Positions 22,686 to 28,998 of a stretch of DNA of 64,000 bases are shown here, in pieces. Position 1 is the stretch's first letter. Every line of letters begins with the position of its first letter. Origin of the DNA: Thiohalophilus thiocyanatoxydans (GTDB lineage: Bacteria > Pseudomonadota > Gammaproteobacteria > UBA6429 > Thiohalophilaceae); the NCBI RefSeq assembly GCF_004366735.1, contig NZ_SOQX01000007.1:1-64000 (forward strand), given 5' to 3'. The translations under genes and the position numbers were made by a program. The notes under the pieces were generated by a model. That model worked only from the letters and a program-made list of their open reading frames with translations. It was not told the DNA's origin and made no database searches.

Positions 22686-23062
22686 GGTATGACGATTCAA
22701 GCCAATTGCTCTCGGCTGCTTTTTTCTAACCAACTTTATTTCTTTGGATATCGAGCTCTGAGCTCTGCCATAACCTGTTCGGCATCCAGGAGTTCGACCC
22801 GACCCTCATGCACATCCTGCACACGCCGTTGAATTTCTTCAAGCCACGCTGCATCCAATTCTTCGCGGGAGAGTGTCTCGTCGTCTTTGTCCAGGCTGCG
22901 GATTAAATCGGCCGCAATGCGCGCCCAGTCCTGTATGGGCAGGGCCATTAGATCCTTTTCAATCTCTGCAATGCTACGTGACATGGTGTCCTCCTGCAGC
23001 GATTGTAGCTCATGAATTTTGAGAAACGCTACGTTCATACATACTTACCGGAGGGCGGCAGG
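22678..23062. repeat. Antitoxin cassette, copy 2 (385 bases)
   Basis: Nearly identical to 13912-14296, same length, same sharp ends. It is bracketed by inverted boundary motifs at 22659-22685 and 23118-23147, which makes a unit of about 490 bases. Confidence 0.85.
22736..22984 (-). CDS. Addiction-module antitoxin, orphan copy 2
   Basis: Protein of 82 residues that differs from copy 1 at two positions (DRAR to DWAR; DDEI to DDET). The start at 22984 follows CAGGAGGAC. No toxin gene adjoins it. The conservation of both copies suggests either a recent duplication or selection to keep the antitoxin. Confidence 0.8.
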   Translation of the reverse strand: MSRSIAEIEKDLMALPIQDWARIAADLIRSLDKDDETLSREELDAAWLEEIQRRVQDVHEGRVELLDAEQVMAELRARYPKK

Positions 23063-23678: not shown

Positions 23679-25322
23679 TTATTCTGTTTTATATCCATCA
23701 GAATTATAAACTGCTTCTATCTCCTGCAACACTACACAAGAATTTCTTTTATATTTTTCATCAACCCCCTTTTGAGCCATACCTATAACATTAGAATCTG
23801 CATCAACTATTGGACCACCGCTATCACCAGATCGAATCAACTGATTGATTTCGACTTTATTAACACCGCTCTCTACGAATGTCATCGTAATATTAGCGTC
23901 TACTATCGAATAGCTATGACCCGGCGCATATCCTGGGAAGCCTAATAGTTTTACTTGCTGTTGTATATAAGGAATTGACTGCGACTTTTGAAGTTCATTA
24001 TTTGGTGGGTTTTCATCTTCATCAACCACCAACGAACATATTGCTATATCTCTATGGCGGCAAATTCGATCAACTTTAATAGTATATCGCTTTGTAGTTT
24101 CTGAATATTTGAATACTTCAATTTCTTCATAAATTTCGCCATCATCATTAGAGACCACATGCGCGCATGTTATGATACCTACGTCAGATAAGTGGAAACC
24201 CGTCCCCTGGGAAACCCTTACCTCATCATTATAATCGTAACATGCCTCAACAACCCATATAGAATTAATCGCATTCTGTTCTGGCTCTGTTATTTCTACA
24301 ATAATAAATTTATGCTCATTTCCAACCAACTCATTGAACTGCTTGGCATATTTTATATATACTGGATCACGTTTTGACCTGATATTATTTAGAAACGCCA
24401 ATTTCCCTTTAACAACGTGCAGATAAGAAGTCTCTTTCCCAGAAGCTCGATGTTTTCTATTGTATTTATTATTATATTCTTCCTCTGCCTTATCATAACC
24501 AAATTTTCTCCAAGCATGAAGCATAGAAGACAATTGTCTGATAAACTTCCGCTTCACATTTATAAATTCATTTACTGTTAGACCAGTCACCTCCATCCTT
24601 GAATACTTTCCTCTCAAACGGACTTTACTGTAATTAATACGAAAGCCGTTATCTTCAATTATACCTGTCAAAGTGCGCCCAGGTCGGGCATCACCTTCAC
24701 TAACACTCACTATCTCTTCTGGTAATCTATTTTTGTTGCATGTAAAAGAAAAGCTTATATCATCGGCATAACGCGTATATGTGCAATTCGTTATTTTCGC
24801 TAGCTGTTGAAGTTGCGAATCTAATTTCCATGCAATCATATTTGAAATTATTGGTGAGGTAGGCGCACCTTGAGGCAAGGCATTTTCAAAGCAACATATC
24901 TGGGCGAGTATTGTGGCAACAGTATTATTAAAATTGAACGGACTGGATTTAAAAAGATTCCTTACCCTTCCAAAATGGATTTCTCCAAAGAAATTTTCTA
25001 TATCAATGTTAAATATATATCTTTTATCTAGGTGTTTTTCTGCATTGGTCACAATGCTCTTATTCTTTACAAACCCGTGCGCTGCTGGTTTAGTTGGATA
25101 TATATCATACAAAACATCTTTTAATGTTATTTGTATTAATTTTAGTTTTTTTGAGGGCGCATTTATATGCCTTTCTCCACCGCTCTTCTTAGGTATAACA
25201 AAATGGTGATACTTATATTCAAAATCTGTTTTATATATTATCTTTGAAAGATCGGCGTAGGAAAGACCAAAATATTTCGCTAATTCCTGATGAGTTTTTA
25301 TATTTAGAAAAGCGTCTTTCAT
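23679..25322 (-). CDS. Retron reverse transcriptase fused to a trypsin-like serine protease
   Basis: Protein of 547 residues. Residues 1-320 form a retron-type reverse transcriptase with the two family hallmarks: NAxxH (Asn93-His97) and VTG (245-247). It also has FNIDIENFF, LPQGAPTSP (149-157) and the YADD site (185-188). Residues 340-540 form a trypsin-like domain with an intact triad: His388 in TCAHVV, Asp425 in HRDIAI and Ser501 in SGDSGGP. Retrons pair an RNA-templated DNA with an effector and act in phage defence; here the effector is probably the protease half. The gene is much richer in A+T than its neighbours, which points to transfer. The matching non-coding RNA lies just upstream (25336-25482). 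Confidence 0.92.
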   Translation of the reverse strand: MKDAFLNIKTHQELAKYFGLSYADLSKIIYKTDFEYKYHHFVIPKKSGGERHINAPSKKLKLIQITLKDVLYDIYPTKPAAHGFVKNKSIVTNAEKHLDKRYIFNIDIENFFGEIHFGRVRNLFKSSPFNFNNTVATILAQICCFENALPQGAPTSPIISNMIAWKLDSQLQQLAKITNCTYTRYADDISFSFTCNKNRLPEEIVSVSEGDARPGRTLTGIIEDNGFRINYSKVRLRGKYSRMEVTGLTVNEFINVKRKFIRQLSSMLHAWRKFGYDKAEEEYNNKYNRKHRASGKETSYLHVVKGKLAFLNNIRSKRDPVYIKYAKQFNELVGNEHKFIIVEITEPEQNAINSIWVVEACYDYNDEVRVSQGTGFHLSDVGIITCAHVVSNDDGEIYEEIEVFKYSETTKRYTIKVDRICRHRDIAICSLVVDEDENPPNNELQKSQSIPYIQQQVKLLGFPGYAPGHSYSIVDANITMTFVESGVNKVEINQLIRSGDSGGPIVDADSNVIGMAQKGVDEKYKRNSCVVLQEIEAVYNSDGYKTE

Positions 25323-25335
25323 ATAAGAATAGGGC

Positions 25336-25482
25336 GGAAGGAAGCCTAGGAATTTCTCTTATAAAACTAAGCGAAACCTTGTACTGTCACAGTCACAGTA
25401 GCGCAAGGTAAGCGTATAAGAGTCACCTTCTATTGGCCACCGCAGATAGTCAGTGGAAATTAATTATTCTAGGCTTCCTTCC
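25336..25482 (-). ncRNA. Retron msr-msd RNA
   Basis: The order on the minus strand is as expected for a retron. A 5' a1 arm (25469-25482, GGAAGGAAGCCTAG) pairs perfectly over 14 bases with the 3' a2 arm (25336-25349). Inside is an msr hairpin (CCACTG/CGGTGG, 25437-25456) and a long msd hairpin (25356-25422) whose base is CTCTTATA/TATAAGAG and whose tip has CCTTG/CAAGG and TACTGT/ACAGTA. It ends 13 bases before the reverse transcriptase start. The branching G and exact RNA ends are not fixed by sequence alone. Confidence 0.85.
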
Positions 25483-25522: not shown

Positions 25523-25550
25523 ATTATAAAAGGCTCGCATCAACCGCCAA
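25523..25550 (-). promoter_or_regulatory. Candidate sigma-70 promoter of the retron
   Basis: On the minus strand, TTGGCG (25545-25550) and TATAAT (25523-25528) are separated by 16 bases. Transcription would start ~35 bases before the a1 arm. Confidence 0.5.
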
Positions 25551-25595: not shown

Positions 25596-25832
25596 CTACC
25601 CCTTCGACTCCAACGGATAATCCTCTGGCCTTTTGATAATCGCCAGCGACAGATCCACATCCAGATCCGGCCAGTACAGATGCTCCGCACCCTGTAGCTC
25701 AATATTACTGAGCGCGGCGATACTGGCATCACGGAACCAGGGGAAATCTTCGAAGGCCAGGAAATGCTCTTCCCCGTTCCAGAGCAACCAGAAGCCATGC
25801 GCGGAGACGTTGGTGAGCTCAACTGCCGGCAT
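25596..25832 (-). CDS. DUF2442 domain protein
   Basis: Protein of 78 residues matching DUF2442: a short strand region, then LWNGEEHFLAFEDFPWFRDASIAALSNIELQG, and LYWPDLDVDLSLAII. The family is small, possibly DNA-binding, and often found beside toxin-antitoxin genes. Here its start overlaps the end of the RelE/ParE-like toxin gene by 14 bases, so the two are translated together. Its role in the module is not known. Confidence 0.85.
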   Translation of the reverse strand: MPAVELTNVSAHGFWLLWNGEEHFLAFEDFPWFRDASIAALSNIELQGAEHLYWPDLDVDLSLAIIKRPEDYPLESKG

Positions 25833-26172
25833 GATTGATTATATTTGCCGAATACCCGCTTTCTGGCTCACGAATGCTTTTGCCTTTCGGGCCCAACCAG
25901 TAGCCAGGTTCGCGATGTTGGTGAGCCACAGCAATTACACGAATTTCATTCTCACGTATACGATAGATTATATTGAACGGAAAACGTTTCATTACCAGTC
26001 TTCGATGATGCTCTTCCAGCCGTAGGCCAATCTCAGGATTCTCAAAACATAGTTCAATCTGAGCATCTAATTCCTCCATAAATTCCATACCAAGACCTGG
26101 CGAACTCTTATTGTAATTTCTGACAATAGCCTGCAGTTCTTTCTGCGCTCTAAAACTGTATGTTGCTCTCAT
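25819..26172 (-). CDS. RelE/ParE-family toxin
   Basis: Protein of 117 residues. The first ~95 residues match the RelE/ParE fold: YSFRAQKELQAIVRNY, GLGMEFMEELDAQIELCFENPEIGLRL, RRLVMKRFPFNIIYRIRENEIRVIAVAHQHREPGYW. The last ~22 residues go beyond the usual end of the fold. The antitoxin gene starts upstream with a 17-base gap between them. Toxins of this fold act on mRNA or gyrase; which one cannot be told. Confidence 0.9.
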   Translation of the reverse strand: MRATYSFRAQKELQAIVRNYNKSSPGLGMEFMEELDAQIELCFENPEIGLRLEEHHRRLVMKRFPFNIIYRIRENEIRVIAVAHQHREPGYWLGPKGKSIREPESGYSANIINHAGS

Positions 26173-26189
26173 CCTTGAGATAACCTCTA

Positions 26190-26435
26190 CTATTCCCGAA
26201 GTACTGATTTTAACGACGCCATTAATTCTTCATGCGACACCAAAGTCGCTTTACCACTGTCGATTTCCGCTTCCCGCCGCCGGACTTCTTCCAGCCACGC
26301 GGCTTCCCATTCTTCGCGCGAGAGCGGCTCATCGTCGTTGTCCAGGCTGCGGATTAAATCAAGGGCGATGCGTGACCGGTCCTGTTCGGGCAGGGCCATG
26401 AGTTCCTTCTCAATGTCGTCGATGTTGCGTGCCAT
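26190..26435 (-). CDS. Addiction-module antitoxin paired with RelE/ParE toxin
   Basis: Protein of 81 residues, clearly paralogous to the two orphan antitoxins (shared IEKELMALP, LIRSLDNDDEPLSREE-WEAAWLEEVRRR). CAGGAGGACAG precedes the start. It is first in a three-gene set with toxin and DUF2442. Promoter autoregulation is likely for such modules, but no operator is obvious. Confidence 0.88.
   Translation of the reverse strand: MARNIDDIEKELMALPEQDRSRIALDLIRSLDNDDEPLSREEWEAAWLEEVRRREAEIDSGKATLVSHEELMASLKSVLRE

Positions 26436-26829: not shown

Positions 26830-28998
<2,169 letters not shown>

Follow-up and report, generated by a model that had tools for sequence, protein, structure and literature searches.

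Among described retrons, the nearest solved chain by sequence to the protein considered here is that of Eco2 (Ec67), in which a trimer of reverse transcriptase (RT), RNA and msDNA keeps a fused Toprim domain switched off; this domain is toxic by itself, and phages that escape the system implicate the nuclease DenB as the trigger (PMC12405507). Fusions of an RT to a protease are mentioned in the same paper (PMC12405507). Until now retron type XI has been known as a catalogued domain fusion only: we found neither a characterised member nor a solved structure in the literature and databases searched, and no msDNA, phage or protease assays of type XI in the literature searched. Apparent mentions of Retron_XI in literature text were actually to Retron_XII. 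An earlier note on a 64,000-nucleotide stretch of Thiohalophilus thiocyanatoxydans DNA (contig NZ_SOQX01000007.1, positions 1 to 64,000; hereafter the window) had claimed a retron RNA beside an RT-protease fusion, an identification for which we found support in the profile match, the structure, the phylogeny and covariation.

The RT-protease gene is intact, lies on the minus strand at 23679-25322, encodes 547 residues and is present as a single copy in the 2.9-Mb genome. Residues 3-539 match the PADLOC profile RT-Protease_XI (E = 1.1e-183), on which the assignment to type XI rests, so the architecture is one that is already catalogued; the next PADLOC families, RT-TIR_XII and RT-Toprim_I-C, cover the RT part only. 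The RT domain (RVT_1, residues 43-249, 24576-25196, minus strand; Pfam E = 1.4e-20) carries the two retron motifs that had been reported for it, with NAEKH (the NAxxH motif) at residues 93-97 and VTG at 245-247, and has YADD at residues 185-188 (24759-24770, minus strand). The trypsin-like protease with an intact His-Asp-Ser triad that had likewise been claimed corresponds to a Trypsin_2 domain at residues 373-515 (23778-24206, minus strand; Pfam E = 7.5e-13) with H388, D425 and S501 as the triad. In an alignment of RT-protease sequences these three residues, and likewise G499, G502 and G503, were invariant in 15 of 15 proteins. Since the triad and glycines have been kept even though the other 14 proteins are only 31-40% identical to the window protein, the simplest reading of the alignment is that proteolytic activity is probably under selection. 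A structure model built from the 15 RT-protease sequences had a mean pLDDT of 83.9, with lower confidence in parts of the link region (residues ~285-350). Residues 1-346 of this model had Eco2 as the closest solved fold (9lm3; Z 31.2, with 37% of 327 residues identical), and residues 346-547 were predicted to adopt the HtrA/Deg protease fold (Z ~25, range ~24-26).

Upstream of this gene and on the same strand we placed the retron RNA at 25336-25482 (a1-msr-msd-a2, minus strand, 5' end at 25482) from an inverted repeat, the predicted fold and a covariance model. The a1 arm GGAAGGAAGCCTAG (25469-25482; GGAAGGAAGCCUAG in RNA letters) and the a2 arm CTAGGCTTCCTTCC (25336-25349; CUAGGCUUCCUUCC in RNA letters) are 100% complementary over 14 nt and separated by 119 nt. 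The earlier note had likewise described a 14-base perfect repeat. Within the 64 kb of the window no other perfect inverted repeat of 14 nt encloses a loop of 40-200 nt, and none arose in 20 first-order Markov resamplings; some inverted repeats of 12-13 nt are present elsewhere in the window. Reading along the minus strand from 25482 to 25336, the order is a1, AAUAAUUAAUUU, the msr hairpin, a spacer, the msd hairpin, AAAUUC and a2. The msr hairpin CCACTG-ACTATCTG-CGGTGG (25437-25456, minus strand) pairs CCACUG (25451-25456) with CGGUGG (25437-25442) around the loop ACUAUCUG in RNA letters, and shows covariation in nine loci. The msd stem is a perfect 8-nt inverted repeat that is also found in the fold, with its 5' side CTCTTATA at 25415-25422 and its 3' side TATAAGAG at 25356-25363 (both minus strand), so that the hairpin is closed by CUCUUAUA/UAUAAGAG in RNA letters; the 3' side overlaps AAGAGAAA (25353-25360), a second conserved element that stands just before a2. 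For the 161-nt region the predicted folding energy is -55.2 kcal/mol, well below that of dinucleotide shuffles (z = -5.4). Both hairpins were thus where the earlier note had put them in order and strand, but the msr hairpin differs from the one in the minimum-free-energy fold, which we dropped because the CCACUG/CGGUGG hairpin has the covariation support. The distance from the end of a2 to the ATG at 25322 is 13 nt, the spacing that had been given. About 40 nt upstream of a1 there is a weak candidate sigma-70-type promoter (TTGGCG-16-TATAAT, 25523-25550, minus strand), which scored 10/12, the top of the region, with a site count equal to chance expectation.

Besides the window gene, searches of plasmids, viral contigs and whole genomes yielded 23 RT-protease genes that are full or nearly full; scanning viral contigs twice more by pattern gave no new loci. 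Because the arms come out misaligned when whole RNAs are aligned with MAFFT, a1/a2 pairing was assessed locus by locus and RNA modelling was confined to the msr. In the closest relative, L011, whose arms are GGAAGGGGGUCUGG and CCAGGCUUCCUUCC, every one of the 14 positions is paired, with three G-U pairs and one pair altered on both sides. The earlier note had named as a refutation that close relatives might keep the RT but lose the a1/a2 pairing, and that is not what we saw. Compensatory changes also separate the arms of L023 (UUUGGGGC/GCCCCAAA) from those of L028 (CUCGGGGC/GCCCCGAG), and most other members have arms of 7-19 bp and differing sequence just upstream of the RT, including 13 bp in L113 when its true gene start is used. 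With the window included, the best repeat beat 40 of 40 shuffles in 13 of 24 loci and was reached by at most one of 40 shuffles in 17 of 24. At the remaining loci the repeat is not significant alone, which counts against the type XI reading, and L035 showed no convincing a1/a2 repeat; yet L023, L031, L033, L111 and L142, whose repeats are not significant alone, have the conserved msr between their arms. Also counting against a functional reading, L011 (331-2229) has one in-frame TAA in its RT domain, with the RNA and triad residues kept, and this stop codon represents either decay or a sequencing error. A genome of the same family (G035, C119:5594-6085; L002) encodes a 48% identical protease segment that ends at the contig end and is probably another type XI retron. 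Among the control genomes, that of Methanosarcina acetivorans matched the RT-Protease_XI profile at E <= 1e-60, which probably comes from the RT part.

Across nine loci of one group, all 53 of 53 cells of the msr hairpin held standard pairs, and three of its six pairs had changes on both sides; sliding the partner strand by 1-3 columns as a control destroyed the pairing. A covariance model of the 49-nt msr element, R1, matched the window at 25421-25469 with 56.9 bits, the window RNA being a member of the training set. Among 74 sources, which included many I-C-like and other RT loci, R1 matches were confined to members of the RNA group. In 369 genomes of the class R1 matched two, exactly the two with a full-length RT-protease match, a scan that gauges specificity and not sensitivity as both genomes are in the training set. 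L142, which a protein search turned up once the model had been made and which was thus held out, has an msr directly upstream of its RT (29.9 bits, E = 1.6e-4) with the stem rebuilt as CCUAUG/CAUAGG, and L028, picked up solely from its RNA pattern, encodes directly downstream a type XI-like RT of the same group. In a quick tree of RTs the eight included members of the RNA group form one clade (support 96). Together, the specificity of R1, these two loci and the coincidence of RT clade and RNA group indicate from sequence comparison that RNA and RT have travelled together. The earlier note had thought this specific RNA new; it has relatives in a type XI clade and its kind is catalogued, but a search of the window against Rfam gave no match. 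In other type XI sub-groups (L034, L038, L025 and L112; L026, L039 and L041; L036 and L042; L037 and L106) a conserved msr particular to each lies between the arms, and by sequence these look like separate RNA sub-families.

The retron is flanked by toxin-antitoxin-like genes and lies downstream of thiC. A ParE-like toxin gene with an Unstab_antitox-family antitoxin gene (25819-26435) and a second Unstab_antitox gene (22736-23038) stand on either side of it, and thiC (26830-28830) is upstream on the same strand. The RT-protease protein was not found in the one genome of the same genus (G038), which has at the corresponding place a rearranged toxin-antitoxin region with shuffled copies. The RT-protease retron L113, from a genome (G690) that belongs to another class, is likewise directly downstream of thiC, so this position is possibly a shared insertion site. 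Many relatives come from viral contigs, as would fit carriage by prophages; L030 and L033, two related viral contigs, share genes that are apparently those of a phage and have the RT-protease gene at the same position next to them, which suggests a prophage cargo site. Downstream of the RT-protease gene on a Haematobacter plasmid (L025) come genes for an ATP-dependent endonuclease and for a UvrD-like helicase, which by annotation only make up a Gabija-like pair. An adjacent nuclease partner was looked for and not found: the retron's neighbours in the window are the ParE/antitoxin genes and thiC, and no neighbour is conserved across 21 loci.

We consider it likely that the window locus is a type XI retron with an msDNA-gated protease acting in phage defence, and for msDNA production, gating, defence and substrate we infer by analogy. 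The mechanism best supported by that analogy is the logic of Eco2 with a protease in Toprim's place. The retron RNA would be transcribed together with the RT-protease gene, and the RT domain would bind it and probably prime at or beside the a1/a2 junction. Synthesis of a small DNA with the msd hairpin as template would start at AAGAGAAA, just before a2, and the resulting RNA-DNA hybrid (msDNA) would stay on the RT, where the complex may keep the fused HtrA-fold protease inactive, as in the RT-Toprim retron Eco2. A phage nuclease, DNA-binding protein or modifying enzyme that damages or captures the msDNA would then render the protease active, and cleavage of host or phage proteins would stop growth before phage release. 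In a comparison of neighbours at 21 loci only the RT-protease family itself recurs; since there is no conserved partner gene the protease is probably the effector itself, and the lack of a recurrent neighbour family argues for host, phage or self proteins as substrates.

That same comparison bears on the possibility that the protease triggers a separate proenzyme, like the trypsin-nuclease (MBL) pairs of Hachiman and AVAST. The mechanism has been shown for such pairs, in which a trypsin-like protease is fused to a defence enzyme (PMC12799240), as one is here; however, the published pairs have the nuclease gene directly upstream and the protease N-terminal, whereas the protease of the window is C-terminal, no family besides the RT-protease recurs beside it in the 21 loci, and of 15 MBL-fold matches in the genome none is on the window's contig (C7). 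We therefore regard a separate proenzyme as unlikely.

A separate point concerns priming. In the retrons described so far, reverse transcription is primed by a guanosine at a1's internal end, most often in the context UAGC, with CAGA in Eco2, and Retron-Sen1 has been noted as being without an apparent priming guanosine (PMC6868368). In the window the last base of a1 is G25469, in the context UAGA, which puts a candidate priming guanosine at the expected place. Across the clade, no G keeps a constant spacing to the conserved UUAA, which counts against the functional reading of type XI, and L030 and L033 have no G within 14 nt upstream of this UUAA, near the end of a1. In these two loci either the a1 boundary differs or another base primes, which we offer as a lead only. 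It is doubtful, and we would give it rather little weight, that the RT-protease clade as a whole is one without a fixed priming guanosine, in which the branch nucleotide or priming mode differs and the protease effector aborts infection.

Quite improbable, in our view, is a retron that makes msDNA but uses its protease for regulation or self-cleavage (e.g., to release the RT or the effector) and not for killing. Self-cleavage is possible given that no conserved substrate gene lies nearby, and the lower model confidence in parts of the link region also speaks for it; we identified no conserved cleavage motif, however, and the RT-effector fusion Eco2 uses its fused Toprim as a toxic effector. 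Either a chance origin of the inverted repeat or decay of the retron is very improbable: the 12-13-nt repeats elsewhere in the window and the stop codon in the L011 RT could be cited for it, but the covariation led us to reject a chance repeat, with compensatory changes in both a1/a2 and the msr, a clade-specific RNA model and held-out matches, and the window's open reading frame is intact with its catalytic residues invariant.

In relation to known systems, the window protein shares its protease fold with HtrA/Deg proteases (Deg2, DegS) and with MarP (Rv3671c; Z ~24-26), but has no PDZ domain and is fused to an RT. The trypsin-MBL nuclease modules of Hachiman, AVAST, Lamassu and DRT (PMC12799240) likewise fuse a protease to a defence enzyme, whereas the window has no adjacent nuclease and its protease is C-terminal to a retron RT. 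Retron type XII (RT-TIR), the next-best PADLOC match, corresponds over the RT part only and has a TIR domain instead of the protease. I-C-like RTs without a protease domain (L008, L009 and L012) have a G directly after a1 (GAyUUU), whereas the window's clade has no fixed place for one. Eco2 (type I-C, RT-Toprim) has the same RT fold, an upstream a1/a2-bounded RNA and a C-terminal fused effector, but its effector is Toprim where that of the window is an HtrA-fold protease, and its msr differs too. If the protease is the toxin, this system of a single gene, with no partner beside it, would be a retron whose killing or arrest works through proteolysis, and its substrate is a testable question. 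To PADLOC RT-Protease_XI the match is whole-length, with an RT and a C-terminal trypsin-like protease in a single gene, and we found no difference; what is added here is an RNA family with covariation for one clade, together with the question of priming.
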